NCBI GenBank assembly: GCA_012729555.1
Contig: JAAYCX010000001.1
Location: forward strand, 1-42,408
DNA from: Acidobacteriota bacterium
GTDB taxonomy: Bacteria; Acidobacteriota; UBA6911
Direction: 5' to 3'
Length of the DNA stretch: 42,408 bases
The notes beneath the pieces are model-generated. The model did no database searches. It had not been told where the DNA came from and saw only the letters and a program-made list of their open reading frames with translations. Position numbers and translations under genes: made by a program. Positions 29,454 to 42,179 of this stretch are shown here, piece by piece; position 1 is the stretch's first letter, and each line of letters begins with the position of its first letter.

Positions 29454-29703
29454 CGGGCCGCCTTTTCTCTTTCTCCGCGATCTGCACGCGTGGGACGATT
29501 CTATAGGAAATCGGAACGGGGCATGGTCAACAGAGCGTAAAGAATTGTGAACTTTTCGCGACCGGGCGCGGCCCGGGGGCCGATAAAAAGGACGATGGGG
29601 GCCGCAATCGTTGCGCGGAGCCCCCGCCTGACTTAAAGTATCGGTGACCGGGGCTCCGCGGCGGCACCGACTCCCGCGGCCCGATGACACAGGTGGGAAC
29701 GGA

Positions 29704-31890
29704 ATGGCCATCATTCGCCTCAGACTTCAAACATATGGGCCGGCCCGGGCAAGGCGGCGGACCCCGGGGGCGGAGGATGCCGTCCGCTTCACCAGCCTGC
29801 GCAATTCCTATTTTCCGGCCCGGGGGGTCCCCCTCTCCCTGGCGGTTCACGGCGTCCTTTTCTGCATCCTTTTCTTCCTCAGGGTGCCGAACCAACCCTG
29901 GGCGGGAGACCCCGCACCCCCCCGGGCCGCGGTGATCGAGAAAAACGAACCGAGGGTGGTCATGTATCTTCCCCTTATCGGGGGGGGGACTCTCGGGCTC
30001 CCCCAACCCGATTCCGGCAAGGGAAAGAGAGCAAAAGCGAAGCCTGTCAGCGCCCCGGAGGTTCCCGCGGCCAGGGCGCGGGGGATGAGCTATCCCGGGC
30101 GGCAGGAGATCGTGTCCGACCCGCCCGACCCGACCAACCGGATCCAGACCCTGGAGCAGCCCGAACTGCTGAATCCGCCGATTCTGCCCCCCCCGCTGGC
30201 CCTGCCGAACATGGTCCAGATAGCCGAGGCCCGGGTCGAGCTCCCGGACCTGCCGGTTCCCGCCGGAATGCCCGAACAGGTGAAACCCGTGGACCCGCCT
30301 CCCGCGAGGCCCCCGGGGCAGATCGCCCCGCCGGATCCCCCCCCGGTGGTTCCCCCGGAGGTGAAGCCGGAGGAACCTCCCGGACCGCCGGAGCCCGCAC
30401 AGCCCCCGCCGCCCCCCCGCCCCGCCGATCCGCCGGCCAATCCCGAGCCGCCGCCGGTGGTGCCTCCGGTGCTGCTTCCTCCGGACGAACCGGTGCTCCC
30501 CCCGGTGGCGCCGATGACGATCCCCGTCGCGGCCCCCGCGGCCGTGATCGAGATTCCCAGGGCGGAACTCGCGCCGCTGGTGCCCCCTCCGCCGGAGCCC
30601 CCTCCGCCGCCGGAGCCCCCGGAGAAAGTGCCCCCGCCGAAGGCGCCCCCGCCGAAGGCGCCCCCGCCGCCGGCGGCGCCGCGGCCCGCGGTCGAAAAGG
30701 CTCCCGTACCGGAGGTTGAAAAAGGGACCGTCCCCGCGGCCGGGAAGGGACCCTCCCCGCCGGAGGTTCCCGTTCCGGCCCGGCCGAAACCGCGCCGGAA
30801 GACGCGGGAGGCGCCCGAGGGGGGGAGCGACCGGAGGGACCTGCTTGCCCTGACCCCCATGCCGGCGCCGGTGCGGGACACCATCGTAGTGCCCCCCGGG
30901 GAGGCCCGCGGGCGTTTCGCCATTTCGCCCGATGCCAACCTCACCGGGCCGGATGACGTGCTGGGGCCGAAATCGGGCCCGGATGAACCGGACCTCGCCG
31001 CCGGCCCGGCCGCGGAACCGGTTCCGCAGGACAGGGAGGCGGCTGCGCCCGACAGCACGGCGGGGCCCGCTCCCGCAACGGAGCCCGCCCCCCCGAAGGT
31101 CGAAAACACCCCCGCCGTCGTCAATATCGGCTCCATTTCCAGAAAGGGCGGGAACCGTCAGGGGTCCGGACCGGGCGGCGCAAAGAGCGCGAAATCCTCC
31201 CCGTCCCCGCAAACGGGGATGGGGACCGGCCGGAGCGGCAGCCCGGGCGGGGGCGCCGTGGCCGGGAGGGGGGCCGGGACCGGTTCCGGGAGCGGCTCCG
31301 GACCGGGCAGGAAGAGGCCCTTTTCGGGCATCACCATCGTGGGCGGTTCGTACGACCCCGGGACGGCCTCCGACCCGGCTCCCGTGGTTCAGGCGCGGCG
31401 CCCGGTGCAGACCGAGTACGGGCTCACGGTCATATCGACGGAGACGAGCGGCGGAGGGCTCCCCTTTACCGGGGTTTTCGCCGGGGCGCAGATCTACACC
31501 GTGTACCTCGACATGAGGCGCGACGAATCGGACGACGCCCCCTCCTGGACCCTGGAATTCGCCCTGGCCGAGGACGCGTCCGGCCCGGCGGCGCCGATGG
31601 GGCCGGGAGGCGGCGAGGGATTGATCCTCCCTTTCCCGGTGGTCAAGGAGACTCCTTCCTGGCCCCCCGAACTGGTTTCCAGATACCCGGGGAGGATGGC
31701 CATCGTCTACGCGGTGGTCAGCGCCGAGGGGAAACTGGAGCAGATCGAGGTCAAGGAGAGTCCCGACCCCCTCCTCCGGGAGCCGCTGCTGCAGGCCCTC
31801 GGCCAGTGGGTGTTCCGTGCCGCGCGGCTGCAGGGGGTCGCGGTTCCGATCCGGCTCCTGATGGGGATCCCGCTGCGGCCCCCCCGGTGA
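29704..31890 (+). CDS. Large proline-rich TonB-like protein
   Basis: 728 residues. An N-terminal cytoplasmic segment precedes one membrane helix (VPLSLAVHGVLFCILFFLRV, about 40-60), as in TonB/energy-transducer proteins. A very long Pro-rich span (about 140-450, e.g. PPPEPPPPPEPPEKVPPP) should bridge the periplasm. A Gly/Ser-rich linker (about 490-545) follows. The C-terminal TonB-type domain has PSWPPELVSRYPGRMAIVYA, VVSAEGKLEQIEV, LLQALGQWVFRAA. It transmits proton-motive force to outer-membrane receptors, or acts as a structural span. ATG 29704 was chosen for GGAACGGA upstream; no ExbB/ExbD genes are nearby. Confidence 0.8.
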   Translation: MAIIRLRLQTYGPARARRRTPGAEDAVRFTSLRNSYFPARGVPLSLAVHGVLFCILFFLRVPNQPWAGDPAPPRAAVIEKNEPRVVMYLPLIGGGTLGLPQPDSGKGKRAKAKPVSAPEVPAARARGMSYPGRQEIVSDPPDPTNRIQTLEQPELLNPPILPPPLALPNMVQIAEARVELPDLPVPAGMPEQVKPVDPPPARPPGQIAPPDPPPVVPPEVKPEEPPGPPEPAQPPPPPRPADPPANPEPPPVVPPVLLPPDEPVLPPVAPMTIPVAAPAAVIEIPRAELAPLVPPPPEPPPPPEPPEKVPPPKAPPPKAPPPPAAPRPAVEKAPVPEVEKGTVPAAGKGPSPPEVPVPARPKPRRKTREAPEGGSDRRDLLALTPMPAPVRDTIVVPPGEARGRFAISPDANLTGPDDVLGPKSGPDEPDLAAGPAAEPVPQDREAAAPDSTAGPAPATEPAPPKVENTPAVVNIGSISRKGGNRQGSGPGGAKSAKSSPSPQTGMGTGRSGSPGGGAVAGRGAGTGSGSGSGPGRKRPFSGITIVGGSYDPGTASDPAPVVQARRPVQTEYGLTVISTETSGGGLPFTGVFAGAQIYTVYLDMRRDESDDAPSWTLEFALAEDASGPAAPMGPGGGEGLILPFPVVKETPSWPPELVSRYPGRMAIVYAVVSAEGKLEQIEVKESPDPLLREPLLQALGQWVFRAARLQGVAVPIRLLMGIPLRPPR

Positions 31891-32247: not shown

Positions 32248-32778
32248 ATGAACGCACAGCTGATCGAACAACTCAAATCGGAAATCCGCGAAATTCCCGA
32301 CTGGCCCAAGAAGGGGATCCTGTTCTATGACGTGACCACGCTGCTGAAAAAGGGGGAGTGTTTCGGCCGGACCATCGACGCCCTGGTCCAGCCGTACCGG
32401 GACCGGAAGGTCGACCTGGTGCTCGGGATGGAGGCGCGCGGGTTCATCTTCGCTCCCACGGTGGCCTACGCGCTCAAGGCGGGATTCGTCCCCGTCAGGA
32501 AGCCGGGGAAGCTTCCGGCGGAAAAGCTGCGGGTGAGCTATGAACTGGAGTACGGGACCGACAGCCTGGAAATCCACCGGGACGCGGTCGAGCCCGGCCA
32601 GCGCGTCCTCGTCGTGGACGACCTCATCGCGACGGGGGGGACCGCCAGGGCCGTCGCGGAAATGGTCGAGACCCTGAAGGCCACCGTCGTCGGGTTCGCC
32701 TTCCTGGTGGAACTCGACTTCCTGAGAGGGCGGGAGAAGCTCGCCGGGTACGACGTTCACAGTCTCCTCAGGTACTAG
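32248..32778 (+). CDS. apt: Adenine phosphoribosyltransferase
   Basis: 176 residues, EC 2.4.2.7: adenine plus PRPP gives AMP (purine salvage). The N-terminus has [20 protein letters not shown], characteristic of Apt. [12 protein letters not shown] and RKPGKLP come next, and the PRPP-binding motif is [14 protein letters not shown] (about 111-124). Length and order are standard. AAGGACGG precedes ATG 32248, one base after the acylphosphatase stop. The next gene starts seven bases after its own stop, so they form one transcript. Confidence 0.96.
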
Positions 32779-32785
32779 GAGGGCC

Positions 32786-33727
32786 ATGAAGCGCATCGGC
32801 ATCATCGGCAGCGGCAACGTGGGCGCCAACAGCGCCTTTTTCATGGCCGAAAACGGCACCGCCACGGTCACCCTCGTGGATATCCGGGAAGGGCTTTCGG
32901 AGGGGAAGGCGCTCGACCTCCTGGAGGCGGGGCCGATCAGGCGCTACGACACGGGGATCCGGGGGAGTGCGGACATCACCGCGATCCGCGGCAGCGACAT
33001 CGTCGTCCTGGCCGCCGGGCGGGTGCGGTCGCCCGGGGAGGGGCGCGAGGCGCTCTACCGGGACAACGCGCCGCTGGTCGGGGAACTCTGCGGCGAAATC
33101 CGCGCCCTCGCGCCCGGGGCCGTCGTCATCAACGTGGTGGAGCCGGTCGACATGCTCACCCTGCTCGCCGGGAGAGTCCTCGGTTTCGACCGCGGGCGGG
33201 TCCTCGGGGTGGGGGGGCTGCTCAGTTCCACCCGGCTCCGGCACCTCGTGAGCCGGGCCCTGGGGGTTTCGCCCCGGGAGGTGACGGGCATGGTGATCGG
33301 CCCGCACCGGCCCGGCATGGTCGTGCTCGAGGACACGGTGCGCGTGAGCGGCGTTCCCGTGGCGCAGCTGCTCGAGCCCGAGGCCCTCTGCGCCATCGTC
33401 GAGGAAACGCGCCGCGCGGGGGACACCATCCTCGAACTGTCGGAAAGGTCCACGGCCTATTACGCTCCCAGCGCCGCCGTGGCCGCCCTGGCGCGGGCCG
33501 TGATCCGGGACGCCCGGACGATCCTTCCGGTATCGATGCGGCTCGACGGCGAGTACGGCCTCCGGGATATCGCCCTCAGCGTACCGGCCCGCATCGGCGC
33601 CGGGGGAGCCGAAAGCGTGATCGAAGTAGCGCTCGGCGGCCGGGAGGAGAAGGAATTTCGGGACGCCGCCGGGGACCTCCGCCGCTCGCTCGAGCGCGCC
33701 GGCGCCGGCGCGGGGCCGGGGGAGTGA
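32786..33727 (+). CDS. Degenerate malate/lactate-dehydrogenase paralogue
   Basis: 313 residues aligned end to end with the canonical MDH that follows. The NAD-binding start is intact (GIIGSGNVGANSAFFM), and the two mobile-loop arginines (Arg81, Arg87) and Arg150 of SSTRLR are present. The catalytic histidine is kept as His174, but in a rewritten loop (IGPHRPGM instead of GGHGDQM). The Asp that pairs with it is Ser147 (LSSTR for LDSTR), and the substrate-contacting Asn of SNPLD is Glu119 (VEPVD). The enzyme is therefore unlikely to oxidise malate normally: it is a regulatory subunit, a changed-substrate enzyme, or a decaying copy. AGGAGG precedes ATG 32786. Confidence 0.8.
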   Translation: MKRIGIIGSGNVGANSAFFMAENGTATVTLVDIREGLSEGKALDLLEAGPIRRYDTGIRGSADITAIRGSDIVVLAAGRVRSPGEGREALYRDNAPLVGELCGEIRALAPGAVVINVVEPVDMLTLLAGRVLGFDRGRVLGVGGLLSSTRLRHLVSRALGVSPREVTGMVIGPHRPGMVVLEDTVRVSGVPVAQLLEPEALCAIVEETRRAGDTILELSERSTAYYAPSAAVAALARAVIRDARTILPVSMRLDGEYGLRDIALSVPARIGAGGAESVIEVALGGREEKEFRDAAGDLRRSLERAGAGAGPGE

Positions 33728-33729
33728 CC

Positions 33730-34674
33730 ATGCCGGGGAAAAAAGTGAGCATCATCGGGGCGGGCAACGTCGGGGCGACGGCCGCCTACTACATCGCCGA
33801 GAAGGTGATGGCCGACATCGTGATGGTGGATGTGGCCGAGGGGGTGACCCGGGCCAAGGCGATCGACTTCCTGCACGCGGGGCCGATGAGGGGGTACGAC
33901 GTCTCGATAGAGGGGACGGGCGATTACGCCGCCGTCGCCGACAGCGACCTGGTGGTGGTCACCGCCGGGGTCGCCCGCAAGCCGGGGATGGACCGCATGG
34001 ACCTGCTCCGGGTGAACGCCGGGATCGTGAAGTCGGCGTCGAAGATGATTGCGCGTTACGCCCCCAACGCCACGGTGATCGTGGTCTCCAACCCCCTGGA
34101 CGTGATGTGCCACGTGGTATACCGCACCACGGGGTTCGCCGTGCAGCGCGTCATCGGCATGGCGGGCATCCTCGATTCCACCCGTTTCCGTTATTTCGTG
34201 GCGGAGCGGCTGGGGTGCGCCTTCACGGACGTCCACGCGATGGTCCTGGGGGGGCACGGGGACCAGATGGTGCCGATGCCTCGCTACACCACCGTCGCCG
34301 GGATCCCGGTCAGCCGCTTCCTGGACGCCGACGAACTGGAGCGGCTGGTGGACCGGACCCGCAAGGGAGGGGCGGAGATCGTGGCCCATCTCAAGACCGG
34401 CTCCGCCTACTACGCCCCCGCGGCGTCGGTCGCGGAGATGGCGGAGGCGATCCTCACCGACCGCCGGACCCTGGTCCCCTGCGCCGTCTGCCTGCGCGGG
34501 GAGTACGGCATCGAAAACCTGTTCATCGGCGTCCCGGTGATCCTGGGGAAAAACGGGGTGGAGCGCATCGTCGAGGTCGAGTTGGAGCCGCAGGAACTCC
34601 AGCTGCTCCGCCGGAGCTCGGAGGCGGTGAGGAAGGGGGTCGAGGAGCTCGAGACCTTCTTCACCGTCCGGTAA
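33730..34674 (+). CDS. mdh: Malate dehydrogenase
   Basis: 314 residues, EC 1.1.1.37, the LDH-like bacterial MDH type. VSIIGAGNVGATAAYYIAEK is the NAD site. ARKPGMDRMDLLRVN carries Arg83/Arg89 (Arg83 region favours malate), SNPLDVM Asn121, GILDSTRFR Asp149/Arg152, and VLGGHGDQMVP the catalytic His176. It interconverts malate and oxaloacetate, feeding gltA and pckG beside it. ATG 33730 was chosen for GGGGAG five bases upstream; a GTG two codons earlier overlaps the previous stop. It lies directly after its degenerate paralogue and converges with gltA (17 bp between stops). Confidence 0.95.
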   Translation: MPGKKVSIIGAGNVGATAAYYIAEKVMADIVMVDVAEGVTRAKAIDFLHAGPMRGYDVSIEGTGDYAAVADSDLVVVTAGVARKPGMDRMDLLRVNAGIVKSASKMIARYAPNATVIVVSNPLDVMCHVVYRTTGFAVQRVIGMAGILDSTRFRYFVAERLGCAFTDVHAMVLGGHGDQMVPMPRYTTVAGIPVSRFLDADELERLVDRTRKGGAEIVAHLKTGSAYYAPAASVAEMAEAILTDRRTLVPCAVCLRGEYGIENLFIGVPVILGKNGVERIVEVELEPQELQLLRRSSEAVRKGVEELETFFTVR

Positions 34675-34691: not shown

Positions 34692-35975
<1,284 letters not shown>

Positions 35976-36128: not shown

Positions 36129-37937
36129 ATGACTGCTCCAACAAAACACGCCAGGCTCCTGGCGTGGGTACAAGAGATGGCCCGCATGACGCAGCCGGAC
36201 AGCGTGGTCTGGTGCGACGGGTCCAAGGCGGAGTACGACTCCATAATGAAAATCGCGGTGGATGGGGGCGTTGCCGTGCCGCTCTCCAGGCGCTCCAATT
36301 CATTCCTGTTCCGCTCGGAAGCATCCGATGTGGCGCGCGTGGAGAACCGCACCTACATTTCCTCCAGGTCCCAGGACGACGCCGGGCCGACCAACAACTG
36401 GATCGATCCCGCCGAACTGAAAGCCACGCTCAAAAAGCTCTACACGGGCTGCATGCGGGGGCGCGTGCTCTACGTCATCCCCTTTTCGATGGGGCCGATC
36501 GGCTCCCCGATGGCCAAGATCGGGGTGGAGATCACCGATTCCCCCTACGTCGTCACCAACATGCACATCATGACGCGGGTGGGGAAGCGGGTGCTGGAAG
36601 TGCTGGGCGACTCGGGGGAGTTCATCCCCTGCCTGCATTCGGTCGGAAAGCCGCTCCTCTCCTGCCAGGACGACGGCGGGCTCTGGCCCTGCGCCCCGAT
36701 GGAACGGAAGTACATCGCCCAGTTCCCCGAGGAGCGGGCGATCTGGTCCTTCGGCTCGGGCTACGGCGGCAACGCCCTGCTCGGAAAGAAGTGCCTGGCG
36801 CTGCGCATCGCCTCCGTGATCGCCAGGGATGAGGGGTGGCTGGCCGAACACATGCTCATCCTGAAGATCACCAGTCCCGAGGACAAGGTCAAGTACATCG
36901 CCGCCGCCTTTCCCTCGGCCTGCGGCAAGACGAACCTGGCGATGCTGGTCCCCACCATCCCCGGCTGGAAGGTCGAGACCATCGGAGACGACATCGCCTG
37001 GATGAAGCAGGGGAAGGACGGCCGCTGGCGCGCCATCAACCCCGAGGCGGGATTTTTCGGGGTGGCCCCGGGGACCTCGATGGAATCGAACCCGAACGCC
37101 ATGCGCACCTTCGAGAGCAACACCATCTTCACCAACGTCGCGCTCACGGAGGACGGGGATGTCTGGTGGGAGGGGATCGGCTACGACGCCCCGGGCACTC
37201 TCGTCGACTGGAAGGGGAATGCCTGGGCACAGAACAAGAAGGACAAGGCCCAGCCCCCCGCGGCGCATCCCAATTCCCGCTTTACGGCCCCCGCGGCCCA
37301 GTGCCCCTCCATCGCCCCCGAGTGGGAGGACCCGGAGGGGGTGCCGATCGACGCCTTTCTCTTCGGCGGCCGCCGCCCGAGCACCGTCCCGCTGGTGACC
37401 CAGTCGTTCGACTGGAACCACGGGGTCTTTCTCGGGTCGATCATCGGGTCGGAGATCACCGCGGCGGCGATCGACGCCAATATCGGCAAGGTCCGGCGCG
37501 ACCCCTTCGCCATGCTCCCCTTCTGCGGCTACCACATGGGGGACTATTTCGCCCACTGGATCCGGATGGGAAAGAAAACGCCGGAAGCGGTGCAGCCGAA
37601 GTTCTTCATGGTGAACTGGTTCCGCAAGACCGCGGAAGGAAAGTGGCTCTGGCCCGGCTACGGGGAGAACAGCCGGGTGCTCCGGTGGATTTTCGAGCGC
37701 TGCGACGGGACGGGCAAGGGGGTGGAGACCCCGATCGGCTATCTCCCGACGGTGGATGCCATCGAGCGGCCCGAAAAGGTCCGGGCCGAAGAGATGCAGG
37801 AGCTTCTGACGGTGGACGCCGCCGGCTGGCGCCGGGAGCTCGAGAACATCAAGGCCAGCCACTACCCGAAATTCGGGGCCAGGCTCCCCAGGGAACTGGC
37901 CCGGCTGCTCGAGGAGCTGGAAAACAGGCTCCGATAG
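36129..37937 (+). CDS. pckG: Phosphoenolpyruvate carboxykinase (GTP)
   Basis: 602 residues, EC 4.1.1.32: oxaloacetate plus GTP gives PEP, CO2 and GDP, the gluconeogenic exit. The kinase-1a loop FPSACGKTN is at 261-269 with the family's reactive cysteine (Cys265), and the metal-binding kinase-2 motif IGDDIAWM at 285-292. Also visible are [11 protein letters not shown], the SMGP loop, and [10 protein letters not shown]. The length near 600 separates it from the ATP type (about 530). Driven by its own strong promoter. The aminotransferase gene begins ten bases after its stop. Confidence 0.96.
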
Positions 37938-37947
37938 GAGAACGCGC

Positions 37948-39246
37948 ATGAAAGAGCACAACCCACTCGCCGCGGCGATGAACCGGGACCTGGAAGCGGG
38001 CGCGCCGCAGCTGCTGGCGATGTTGTCCGAGCGGGGCAAGGCCATCTATTTCCCCCACAAGGGGATCCTGGGGCAGACGGCGGAGGCGAAGGGGGTCTCG
38101 ATCAACGCCACCATCGGCACCGCTTTCGAGAACGACGGATCCCCGCTGACGCTCGAGTGCATGGAGGCGCTGGTCAACGTCCCCTCCGAATCCTTTCTCT
38201 ACGCCCCCAGCTTCGGGTTGCCGAAGCTGCGGGAGGAGTGGGGCCGGCTGCTCGAGACCAAGAACCCGGGGCTCAGGGGCAAGAGGTTCAGCAAGCCGGT
38301 GGTCACCGCGGCGCTGACCCACGCGCTTTCGGTCGCGGGCTACCTTTTCGTCGACCCCGGGGACGAGATCCTGATCCCCGACCTCTACTGGGACAACTAC
38401 GAGCTCGTTTTCGGCGAGACCTACGGCGCCGCCTTCAAGTTCTACAACACCTTCACGGGCGGGGGCTTCGACGTGGGAGCCTTCTCCCGCGCCCTCGGCG
38501 AAGGGAAGCCGGGCAAGCGGATCGTGCTGCTCAATTTTCCCAACAACCCGACCGGCTATACCCCGACGGTGGAGGAGTACCACGCCCTCGTCGGGGCGAT
38601 CCGGGACGCGGCGGAAGCGGGCAGCCGGGTGGTCGTGGTGCTCGACGACGCCTATTTCGGCCTGGTCTACGAGGAGGGAGTCGCCCGCGAGTCGCTCTTC
38701 AGCGCCCTGGCCGACCTGCACCCGAACGTGCTCGGCGTGAAACTGGACGGGGCCACCAAGGAGGACTACGTCTGGGGCTTTCGTGTCGGTTTCGTCACCT
38801 TCGGCTCGGCGGGCGCGGCCGAGTCCCACCTCCGGACGCTCGAGGACAAGGCCGCGGGGGCCGTCCGGGGCACGATCTCCAACGCCCCCTGCCTCTCCCA
38901 GGCGATCCTGCTCAGGGCCTACACCGACCCCGGTTATGCCGCGCAGAAGAAGGCGAAATACGAAACCCTGGCCGGGCGGGTGCGCGAGATCAAGGCCGTG
39001 CTCCGGGCGCACCCGGAATACGCCGACAGCTTCGATGTCATGCCCTTCAATTCCGGCTATTTCATGTGCGTCCGGCCGAAAGGGGTCGACCTGGAGGCGC
39101 TCCGCAGGGAGCTGATCGCCGGGTACGCCACCGGCGTCATCGTCCTGGTCGGCCTCGTGCGGCTCGCCTTCTCCGCGGTCCCGACCGAGAAGATCGCGCA
39201 GCTGTTCGCCAACCTGGACGTCGCCGTCAGGAAGCTGCGCGGTTAG
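37948..39246 (+). CDS. Class I/II PLP-dependent aminotransferase
   Basis: 432 residues of fold-type I. Cofactor motifs: LLNFPNNPTGYTPT (Asn/Pro/Gly loop), VVLDDAYFGLVYEEG (Asp and Tyr contacts), and GATKEDYVWGFRVGF with the Schiff-base lysine and the downstream carboxylate-binding region; SGYFMCVRP carries the late strand. The substrate is not certain; position after pckG suggests an amino group transfer linked to oxaloacetate or pyruvate. AGGAG precedes ATG 37948. Its last 24 codons, stop included, are repeated twice more directly downstream (see the repeat entry). Any read-through of TAG would extend the protein in frame. Confidence 0.85.
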   Translation: MKEHNPLAAAMNRDLEAGAPQLLAMLSERGKAIYFPHKGILGQTAEAKGVSINATIGTAFENDGSPLTLECMEALVNVPSESFLYAPSFGLPKLREEWGRLLETKNPGLRGKRFSKPVVTAALTHALSVAGYLFVDPGDEILIPDLYWDNYELVFGETYGAAFKFYNTFTGGGFDVGAFSRALGEGKPGKRIVLLNFPNNPTGYTPTVEEYHALVGAIRDAAEAGSRVVVVLDDAYFGLVYEEGVARESLFSALADLHPNVLGVKLDGATKEDYVWGFRVGFVTFGSAGAAESHLRTLEDKAAGAVRGTISNAPCLSQAILLRAYTDPGYAAQKKAKYETLAGRVREIKAVLRAHPEYADSFDVMPFNSGYFMCVRPKGVDLEALRRELIAGYATGVIVLVGLVRLAFSAVPTEKIAQLFANLDVAVRKLRG

Positions 39247-39390
39247 GCGTCCCTGACCGAGAAGATCGCGGAGCTGTTCGCCAACCTGGACGCCGCCATC
39301 CGGAAGCTGCGCGGTTAGGCGTCCCTGACCGAGAAGATCGCGGAGCTGTTCGCCAACCTCGACGCCGCCGTCAGGAAGCTGCGCGCCTAG
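39175..39390 (+). repeat. Three tandem 72-bp units made from the aminotransferase 3' end
   Basis: Copies at 39175-39246, 39247-39318 and 39319-39390 are each exactly 72 bp, and each ends in TAG. The first is the authentic end of the aminotransferase gene (24 codons). The others read on in the same frame as ASLTEKIAELFANLDAA plus RKLR(G/A) and a stop. Copies 2 and 3 are more alike to each other (GCGTCCCTGACCGAG start) than to copy 1 (GCGGTCCCGACCGAG). A terminator follows at 39422-39446. It is not a microsatellite: unit length, stop and register are all kept. Confidence 0.95.
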
Positions 39391-39421
39391 GCGCTCTTTC
39401 GCCGGCCCCGTCAAAGACCGC

Positions 39422-39446: not shown

Positions 39447-39688
39447 CGCTTTTCCGGCCCTCCCGGCCCCATGGCTGCCGCGCGAGGGGCCCGGCCCGGA
39501 AAAAGTTGGTTCCTTTTCCCCCTTTTTAATGTATCTTCTACGGATCAAAGGATATTTTGAGGGAACGGAATCCTTCCCCGCAATTTTGCCGGATTGGAGC
39601 TGGATAAAGGATTTCCCACCCAGGCGCGCGGATGCGTGAATCCGCCGGGGAACCGGGACAGGACACCAAATTTGGAGGAAATCAGCCG
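39447..39688. other. Leader region of the MoaF-like gene
   Basis: About 240 bp without a gene. It includes an AT-rich patch (39514-39560, TTTTTAATGTATCTTC) that may hold a promoter, but no box pair with good spacing is obvious. Confidence 0.4.
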
Positions 39689-41488
39689 ATGATGAACATA
39701 CCGATGCACCGATTCAAGTACACCAAGCTTTCCAAGGACCAGGTGACACGCAAACTCGCCGCCACCGCGGCCGGGCCGAAGAGCGCGTCGCAGCTTTCGG
39801 GCGTGCTGGCCGGCAAGAGCCTCAAGATCGTGACCGACGACGGCCCGGTGCTCCACTACGCGTTCAAGAGCGCCAACCGCCTGACGCTGGCCGAAGGGAA
39901 CGCCTCCGCCGCCGAGGCGGCCTACGGCGCGCTCGAACTGAAACAGATGGTTTTCTTTTCCCACATGGTCCCCGGGACCCTGAAGGGGTTCAACGTCTTC
40001 GTCGACCTCAAGAGCCACCTCGCGACCGTCTTCGAGGTGTGGTTCGCGGGCGGCAAGGACCCGTCCGGGCAGCAACTCGATGACCGGGAAGTCCAGCGCC
40101 AGGTCTGGTTCGGTTACGTCGACGTTGCCGGGAAAAAGGCCCCGGAGGAGCGGCACCATTTCACCAACCGGCTCGAAGGGACCGGCATGTACTGGAAGCA
40201 GGACACGGGGATCGAAACCATCGACCTCTATCCCTCGATCATCTCCTCCAACTTCATCGAGGTCACCCGGCACGCGGACGATCTCAGCTACTGCAGCCCG
40301 TCGGACTACATCCTGGTCAACGACAACCTGGTCATCTATGACCGGACCGAATGCGAGTTTTCGGGCATCATGACCCTCTACCTCCTCGACCTGTTCACGG
40401 AGACCCAGGTGGGGATGCGGCTCGGCTTCAACGAAAAGGACGAACTCGAATACTACATGTACCGCGGAGCGGGGAAGATCGTCGGCCAGCTGACGTCGCT
40501 GGCCCCCTTCGACGAGCACGGCAAGACGGTCAACCTGGCCATGGGCGGGGCCCCGGCCAAGGCCGCCAAGGCCGCTCCGGCGGGGCCGCCGCCCAAGGGG
40601 CAGCGCACCGTGTACCGCCCGGGCAGGACCTTCAAGAACATGACGCCGGAAGAGGTCCAGCGGGCGGCGGAGAAGAGCACCGTCACCTTCACCGGCGACC
40701 CCAACGCGCCCCAGCAGCAGGCGGGGATGATGGGGGGCCACCTCCTCCCCTTCAGCGACCTGCTCGTCGGCAAGGAGTTCACCCTCCGCTACGACAACGA
40801 GGGGCCCGGGTGGGAGTACAAGGTCCTCGACATCTATAACCTCCAATGGCGCAAGGAGGGGACGACCGCGTGGCAGAAGGAGACCTACCGGGCGTTCGAG
40901 GCGGACGAAAAACTGGTGTTTTTCGGCCACATCGTCACCGGGAGCAATCCCGTTTCCTGCCGCCGGATCGCCCTGGACCTGACCAACGGGCTGACCACGG
41001 CCATCCTCTCCTGGATGGGGACGGAGTATTACGGGAACGAGGTGTCCTACCGCGCCGTCTTCGGCGCCGCCGAAATGGAAGGGGTCAACGCCCCGAGGTA
41101 CGTGCGCCACGGCTTCACCGACGAGCTGGTCGGCCGCGGATTCACCCGCACCTATTCCGACCAGATGACGTCCATGCACCTGTACACCACGGCGCATTCC
41201 TCTTCGTGGACGATCTACACGGCGAACCAGACGCTGGGCATGCAGTGGTGCGCCCCGGCCCTTTACGTGAAGCTCCGGGACGGGGTGTACATCTTCGACC
41301 TGGTCGAGGAGGCGTGCAACGGCGCCGAGACCTGCATCATCGAGAACGAAAAAACCAAGCGCGCCATCGGCTTCGGTTTTTCCGGAGGCGAACGGGGGGT
41401 GAGCTTCGGCCTGATCGGGGCCATCGCGCGCGACCTCGGGGGGTACGACATCAAGCACTTCCTCGGACCGAAGGCGAAAGGAGTATAG
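39689..41488 (+). CDS. Double MoaF-like protein (two fused modules)
   Basis: 599 residues built from two MoaF-type units. Unit 1: residues ~38-145 (ALELKQMVFFSHM, FNVFVDLKSHLATVFEVWFA) and ~155-268 (SPSDYILVNDNLVIYD … YYMYRGAGKI). A Pro/Ala linker follows (~287-350). Unit 2: ~357-450 (LLVGKEFTLRYDN, RIALDLTNGLTTAILSWMG) and ~472-582 (GRGFTRTYSDQMTSMHLYT, SSWTIYT, CAPALYVKLRDGVYIFDLVEE). MoaF proteins are about 260-280 residues, with a calycin-like N- and C-terminal domain, originally tied to molybdopterin or amine metabolism; their function is unclear. No signal peptide. GGAGG lies before ATG 39689 (39692 also possible). One base separates it from the next gene. Confidence 0.75.
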   Translation: MMNIPMHRFKYTKLSKDQVTRKLAATAAGPKSASQLSGVLAGKSLKIVTDDGPVLHYAFKSANRLTLAEGNASAAEAAYGALELKQMVFFSHMVPGTLKGFNVFVDLKSHLATVFEVWFAGGKDPSGQQLDDREVQRQVWFGYVDVAGKKAPEERHHFTNRLEGTGMYWKQDTGIETIDLYPSIISSNFIEVTRHADDLSYCSPSDYILVNDNLVIYDRTECEFSGIMTLYLLDLFTETQVGMRLGFNEKDELEYYMYRGAGKIVGQLTSLAPFDEHGKTVNLAMGGAPAKAAKAAPAGPPPKGQRTVYRPGRTFKNMTPEEVQRAAEKSTVTFTGDPNAPQQQAGMMGGHLLPFSDLLVGKEFTLRYDNEGPGWEYKVLDIYNLQWRKEGTTAWQKETYRAFEADEKLVFFGHIVTGSNPVSCRRIALDLTNGLTTAILSWMGTEYYGNEVSYRAVFGAAEMEGVNAPRYVRHGFTDELVGRGFTRTYSDQMTSMHLYTTAHSSSWTIYTANQTLGMQWCAPALYVKLRDGVYIFDLVEEACNGAETCIIENEKTKRAIGFGFSGGERGVSFGLIGAIARDLGGYDIKHFLGPKAKGV

Positions 41489-41489
41489 G

Positions 41490-42179
41490 ATGACCAGAAC
41501 GCAAAGGACTTCAGACACCATCGACCGACATAAGCCGGACCGCAGCCGCCGCTCCTTCATCCGCAAGACGGGGGCCGCCCTTTCCGCGGTGGCGGCGTCG
41601 GCGGCGGCGGGATTTTCCCGCACCTCCGCTCCGTCGTCCGGCGGCGACCAGCTCGGCCTTCTCAAGCGCCGGGTGGGGAACCTCGAGGACGCGGAAAATG
41701 TCCGTCGGCTGCACCTGGCCTACGAGTCGAGCCTCGACCGGGGCCGTTACGAGGATGTGGCCGCGATGTTCACCGAGGACGCCGAGGTGGTCTTCGGCGG
41801 CAGCCTCTTCAGCGGCAGCGAGGGGGTGCGCCGCCTCTACTGCGAGCGGTTCGCCGCCGGCCGCACCGGAAAAAAGATCGAGCCGGCGCCGGGATTCGAA
41901 CCCGGCCTTCCCGAACTGGAGACGGCCGTGGAGGTCGCGAAGGACCGCACTACGGCCTCCGGGCGCTTCCCCTTCTCCATGCAGGTGGGCGAGCCGATGA
42001 CGGGCGATTCCTCCCTGGTGGCCATGGCGCGCCTGCACGGCGAGGGGATCGTGCGGCGGTGGGAGCGCGGCAGCTGCACGCTGTCCTGCGTGAAAACCGA
42101 CGCGGGCTGGAAGATCCGGCGCCTGGAATACCGCACCGCCCTCAAGGCCGACTACCGCCCCGGCCGGGTCCTGGCGTAA
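41490..42179 (+). CDS. Tat-exported NTF2-like (SnoaL-type) protein
   Basis: 229 residues. A twin-arginine leader (SRRSFIRKTGAALSAVAASA, residues ~19-38) sends it folded to the periplasm. The mature part has LEDAENVRRLHLAYESSLD, RGRYEDVAAMFTEDAEVVFG, GSEGVRRLYCERFA (fold helices) and a final strand GWKIRRLEYRTAL. The cone fold can bind or isomerise small hydrophobic ligands; catalytic residues cannot be assigned. AAAGGAG precedes the ATG one base after the MoaF-like stop, so they are co-translated although only this one carries an export signal. Related in layout to the secreted NTF2-like protein at 20351-20893. Confidence 0.75.
   Translation: MTRTQRTSDTIDRHKPDRSRRSFIRKTGAALSAVAASAAAGFSRTSAPSSGGDQLGLLKRRVGNLEDAENVRRLHLAYESSLDRGRYEDVAAMFTEDAEVVFGGSLFSGSEGVRRLYCERFAAGRTGKKIEPAPGFEPGLPELETAVEVAKDRTTASGRFPFSMQVGEPMTGDSSLVAMARLHGEGIVRRWERGSCTLSCVKTDAGWKIRRLEYRTALKADYRPGRVLA

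Follow-up and report, generated by a model that had tools for sequence, protein, structure and literature searches.

A malate dehydrogenase paralogue with a rewritten active site, possibly a ligand-sensing partner of the canonical enzyme encoded directly after it, in an acidobacterial lineage

Malate dehydrogenase (MDH) is a textbook homo-oligomeric enzyme in which Asn140, Asp168, and His195 (lactate dehydrogenase [LDH] numbering) are close to universal. Division of labour between paralogous subunits is exemplified by NAD-isocitrate dehydrogenase (human IDH3, yeast IDH1/IDH2), which pairs catalytic with regulatory paralogues, the latter having given up catalysis while retaining the ligand site. 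In the mechanism of the LDH/MDH family, Asp168 orients His195, and Asn140 makes contact with the oxygen of the substrate; the C1 and C4 carboxylates are bound by Arg171 and Arg102, respectively, and polarisation of the carbonyl is due to Arg109 (PMC4109310 and general knowledge). In the trypanosomatid prozymes, a dead paralogue activates a working enzyme within a heteromer, as described for AdoMetDC (PMC5201418) and deoxyhypusine synthase (PMC3663545). The closest described relatives of the locus presented here are the LDH-like bacterial NAD MDHs (TIGR01763), e.g., those of Chloroflexus aurantiacus (1uxi/1guy) and Thermaerobacter (7aob); one of its two products is a full member of this group, and the other departs from it in the catalytic centre.

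The window, i.e., the whole 42,408-nucleotide stretch of DNA analysed (contig JAAYCX010000001.1 of assembly GCA_012729555.1), carries two MDH-type genes lying head to tail on the forward strand. Gene A (32786..33727; 313 aa) encodes an MDH paralogue with a rewritten active site (N140E, D168S, and GGHGDQ replaced by GPHRPG) and is immediately 5' of gene B (33730..34674), a canonical NAD MDH with an ATG 2 nt past the A stop codon; an alternative GTG start of B at 33724 overlaps that stop codon. Apart from A and B, nothing in the window genome (3.83 Mb, 98 contigs) matches the C-terminal LDH/MDH domain. The likely ribosome-binding site of A, AGGAGGG (32777..32783, forward strand), overlaps the stop codon of the preceding apt gene and ends 2 nt before the A ATG; this strong motif is found in the window genome and in G004, with weaker motifs in the remaining pair-bearing species. 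Across six species, the spacing from the A stop codon to the conserved ATG of B is -8, -8, -8, +2, +2, and +24 nt. Because of the 8-nt overlap in three species and the 2-nt gap in two, translational coupling and balanced synthesis of A and B are likely in most species, to judge from the gene arrangement.

The two proteins share 39% identity over 302 residues, gap-free. B passes the equivalog profile for bacterial MDH, TIGR01763, at 432.3 bits (cut-off, 351.85), which A fails at 259.2 bits; A passes the broader subfamily profile NF004863 (291 vs 283) and scores above the Pfam gathering thresholds of PF00056 (81.7 bits; threshold, 27) and PF02866 (68.4 bits; threshold, 22.6). The original prediction was of a canonical MDH beside a paralogue that keeps the NAD site, loop arginines, and catalytic His and has Ser for the His-partner Asp, Glu for the substrate Asn, and a GPHRPG loop; the profile match of B and the alignment of A bear out each of these points. 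Retained in A, along with the NAD-site motifs, are R102 (R81 in A numbering), R109 (R87), R171 (R150), and H195 (H174), and substituted are N140 (E119), D168 (S147), and G194 (P173), together with the GGHGDQ loop. For the catalytic set R102, R109, N140, D168, R171, and H195, B thus has 6/6 residues and A 4/6, with E140 and S168 in the remaining positions. The E/S/GPH combination is identical in all six A orthologues; therefore, the A sequence is not a product of sequencing error or chance. N140 and D168 are present in 47/47 of the other MDH sequences compared, none of which has E or S in those positions, and this conservation suggests that both residues are essential. GPH by itself is not diagnostic of A, as the otherwise canonical MDH L086 reads GPHGD.

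Membership of A in described groups of altered specificity was considered. L-lactate dehydrogenase was rejected given the presence of R102, where canonical LDHs have Gln together with D168/H195, and of S168. The hydroxyisocaproate dehydrogenase clade has a residue other than Arg or Gln at 102, a loop insertion, and a retained D168 (PMC4109310), whereas A has R102, S168, and no insertion relative to B. The original prediction offered two roles for A, a regulatory partner of MDH or a dehydrogenase for another 2-hydroxy acid; the latter, in its classical form, is weakened because the known specificity switches keep Asp168 and His195 (PMC4109310).

An AlphaFold2 model of A (44 sequences; pLDDT 93.7) predicts a complete LDH/MDH fold, and matches the nearest solved structure, the tetrameric Chloroflexus MDH 1uxi, with a Z of 46.3 and an rmsd of 1.3 Å over 308 residues. 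Residues 36-56, which we take to be the main dimer-interface helix of the fold, are 56% identical between A and B and thus among the best-shared segments, with several later segments at 23-35%. Sharing of the 36-56 segment would allow for an A-B dimer.

The pocket of A has been held constant in its altered form. A dN/dS comparison, proposed with the original prediction, gave values indicative of purifying selection on A, i.e., 0.14 between G007 and G009 (dS 0.69) and 0.30 between the window genome (G000) and G004 (dS 0.08), synonymous sites being near saturation in comparisons beyond these two pairs. The corresponding values for B are 0.06 and 0.19, such that A evolves about twice as fast. Among 65 columns that are ≥95% conserved in 55 canonical sequences, 38 have the canonical residue in every A (including R102, R109, R171, H195, and the NAD motifs), and 13 hold a different, itself invariant residue, including N140E, D168S, G194P, and the change from Gly-Ser to Ser-Thr at 222-223. 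In the first-shell pocket, 14/16 positions are invariant in A compared to 159/300 overall (p = 0.0035), with the 16 MDH residues taken from a published list (PMC4109310) and 236/237 mapped by alignment, perhaps off by one. Conservation within A is thus stronger in the pocket, in its rewritten form, than elsewhere. A was rewritten and is maintained; as in the non-catalytic member of an IDH3-like or prozyme-like pair, near-universal catalytic residues are missing from a protein that is nonetheless under purifying selection.

Orthologues of A (64-95% identity) are present in 6/10 species of one genus of uncultured Acidobacteria, window included, and A lies directly before B in each genome that carries it. 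A profile built from the six A sequences returned 595-618 bits for A orthologues and 295 bits for the next best match among 396 Acidobacteriota genomes; no A-type protein was found outside the genus in this search. Likewise, none scored over the cut-off in 395 genomes from the phylum of the Bacteroidetes-named MAG L035, a set holding no positive control, and a pattern scan across 84,980 species genomes, which detects close relatives only, yielded no A loci beyond two, one in each of two species of the window's genus. From the four other species of the genus, both A and a B-clade MDH are absent (3/4 of these genomes being 97-100% complete); two contain an MDH-like gene that is different and more distant, and in the other two none was detected. 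A search reading through stop codons recovered no decayed remnant of A in these four species at an E value of 0.001. Operon position had been part of the original case for A, and conservation of the pair in relatives had been proposed as a check on it; both hold in that A and B are adjacent in 6/6 A-bearing species, mostly with coupling-type spacing. Relatives with the MDH gene but with A frameshifted or absent, which would have spoken against that case, were sought and not found, as B is missing wherever A is missing. As a separate observation, no LDH/MDH-family relative of A or B was detected in G006 (97% complete) or G002 (76%); since G006 is a close sister of the window species, malate oxidation there probably proceeds via another enzyme type.

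Phylogenetically, A and B each form a single clade (each 100/100) in a tree of 43 MDHs. The A stem branch is very long, at about 1.8-2.1 changes per site, and the A crown is ordinary, a shape in which rapid change came first and constraint later. A and B are not grouped in this tree, and an AU test does not reject their grouping (p-AU 0.29). Rare residues are common to A and B at four sites, and the counts for two further clades are 4 and 8; with no clear excess, these residues show neither descent of A from B, as by tandem duplication, nor co-adaptation with it. L086, from a genome of another acidobacterial family (G217), resembles A in its GPHGD and RPRSPG motifs and has 8 rare residues in common with it, with N140 and D168 normal; this likeness may be a clue to the origin of A or a long-branch coincidence. 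Species with the pair do not constitute one clade in an rpoB tree (p-AU 1e-12), and G006, without A and B, is sister to the window species plus G004; thus, on at least two occasions A and B were gained together or lost together, for which physical linkage can in part account.

The flanks of the pair are rearranged between species, with the pair itself staying together. Directly 5' of A, apt (adenine phosphoribosyltransferase; 32248..32778, forward strand) is a neighbour in the window genome and G004 only, and a fixed operon of A and B with apt and acylphosphatase was rejected, as both of these genes precede A in those two genomes alone. Further upstream of acylphosphatase and apt, positions 29644-31890 encode a 748-aa proline-rich protein of TonB-like appearance and without a Pfam match. 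On the other side, citrate synthase (34692..35975, reverse strand) is convergent with B and also adjoins the pair in G001, G004, and G008; GTP-dependent PEP carboxykinase (36129..37937, forward strand) is also close to the pair in G001, G007, and G008; and a class I/II aminotransferase (37948..39246, forward strand), for which the nearest solved relative is 2x5f, named aspartate/tyrosine/phenylalanine aminotransferase, is close to the pair in four further species. Oxaloacetate is common to MDH, citrate synthase, and PEP carboxykinase directly, and probably to the aminotransferase. The 3' end of the aminotransferase gene, including its stop codon, occurs three times as a 72-bp tandem array (39178-39393; 93% identity) of 24 in-frame codons, with TAG closing each copy and a terminator-like hairpin following. 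Beyond it, a 618-aa protein with a MoaF-like domain (39632-41488) adjoins a SnoaL-like protein (41490-42179).

Our favoured reading, held at somewhat below an even chance, is that A, as an MDH paralogue, binds ligand but is impaired in the transfer of hydride, and that it joins B in a common assembly to act there as the sensing subunit. According to this proposal, (i) A would bind NAD(H) and a malate- or oxaloacetate-like dicarboxylate, (ii) A would be poor or inactive in normal MDH chemistry, (iii) A and B would co-assemble through the conserved dimer/tetramer surfaces, and (iv) ligand occupancy of A would tune B at the oxaloacetate branch point, a setting suggested by the clustering of MDH, citrate synthase, PEP carboxykinase, and aminotransferase genes. 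We prefer a partner role because no A-bearing genome has A apart from B, and because Asp168 and His195 are retained through the specificity switches known for the superfamily. Against it, physical linkage alone would also give joint loss or transfer of adjacent genes, a constrained substituted pocket is as compatible with catalysis as with sensing, loss of Asp168 need not abolish activity, and rare residues give no sign of co-adaptation with B. In the main rival reading, a less probable one, A works by itself as an enzyme, and its chemistry, on a dicarboxylate resembling oxaloacetate or malate, has been altered. There, a carboxylate would in effect have been moved from 168 (Asp) to 140 (Glu), changing either the polarisation of His195 or the C2 group that is handled; another 2-hydroxydicarboxylate, an imine, or oxaloacetate tautomerisation are guesses at the reaction. 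The invariance of the replaced residues, a first shell more conserved than the rest of A, the loss of one negative charge at 168 with the gain of one at 140, and the aminotransferase in the same cluster are all in keeping with such an enzyme, and dicarboxylate binding is plausible with Arg102, Arg109, Arg171, and His195 kept. However, no enzyme known to us catalyses with the E140/S168 combination. Moreover, pathway genes specific to a substrate do not travel with A, an independent enzyme would not need its tie to B, and the specificity changes of the superfamily (in LDHs and hydroxyisocaproate dehydrogenases) preserve Arg109, Asp168, Arg171, and His195 (PMC4109310).

That A is a slow yet genuine MDH isozyme, with tolerated substitutions and a contribution of added capacity or different kinetics, is improbable: His195, the three substrate arginines, and the complete predicted fold would permit it, but N140 and D168 are without exception in the 47 other MDHs, A falls below the TIGR01763 cut-off, and a poor second MDH beside a good one offers no obvious benefit. 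Still more remote is the decay of a duplicate that lost its function recently, for which the doubled evolutionary rate relative to B and the long stem branch might be cited; the gene is intact in six species at 64-95% identity with dN/dS well under 1, its catalytic substitutions are frozen, 159/300 core positions are invariant, and no frameshifted copy was found. A pseudogene or assembly artefact was rejected in view of the six intact orthologues and purifying selection, which, with the frozen substituted pocket, uphold the earlier argument against simple decay. That its catalytic residues were replaced and then strictly preserved points away from a copy in decay and towards either a dedicated partner or a new enzyme. 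A frozen, different residue set beside a normal MDH would represent either the first regulatory MDH subunit or a natural redesign of an active site that is among the best studied, with its wider importance limited by a distribution so far confined to one genus.

Ultimately, A shares with the TIGR01763 MDHs its fold, length, NAD motifs, Arg102, Arg109, Arg171, and His195, and differs from them in Glu140, Ser168, the GPHxP loop, and the failed equivalog cut-off. The apicomplexan LDHs, which derive from MDH, are likewise diverged MDH-derived copies; there, the specificity loop changed and the catalytic residues were kept, whereas in A the specificity arginine was kept and the catalytic partners were replaced (PMC4109310). 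Per its PDB molecule name, the LDH of Cryptosporidium parvum (2fn7) is also encoded by a gene adjoining that of MDH, as is A. An MDH with a pseudoenzyme or regulatory subunit was not found in a non-exhaustive search of the open-access literature, in agreement with the earlier statement that no described system of this kind was known. The prozymes belong to eukaryotic and unrelated enzymes, and A would be their counterpart if it were inactive and activated B. The NAD-isocitrate dehydrogenase pairs come from an unrelated protein family but are alike in the logic proposed for A and B, for which co-assembly and regulation are put forward by analogy. A catalytic enzyme with a non-catalytic paralogous partner is thus an arrangement already known from NAD-isocitrate dehydrogenase and the prozymes; for MDH it would be new, and this tightly coupled gene pair at an oxaloacetate branch point in an acidobacterial lineage may, as a tentative proposition that we hold with well under even confidence, provide the first MDH with a dedicated non-catalytic, ligand-sensing paralogous subunit.
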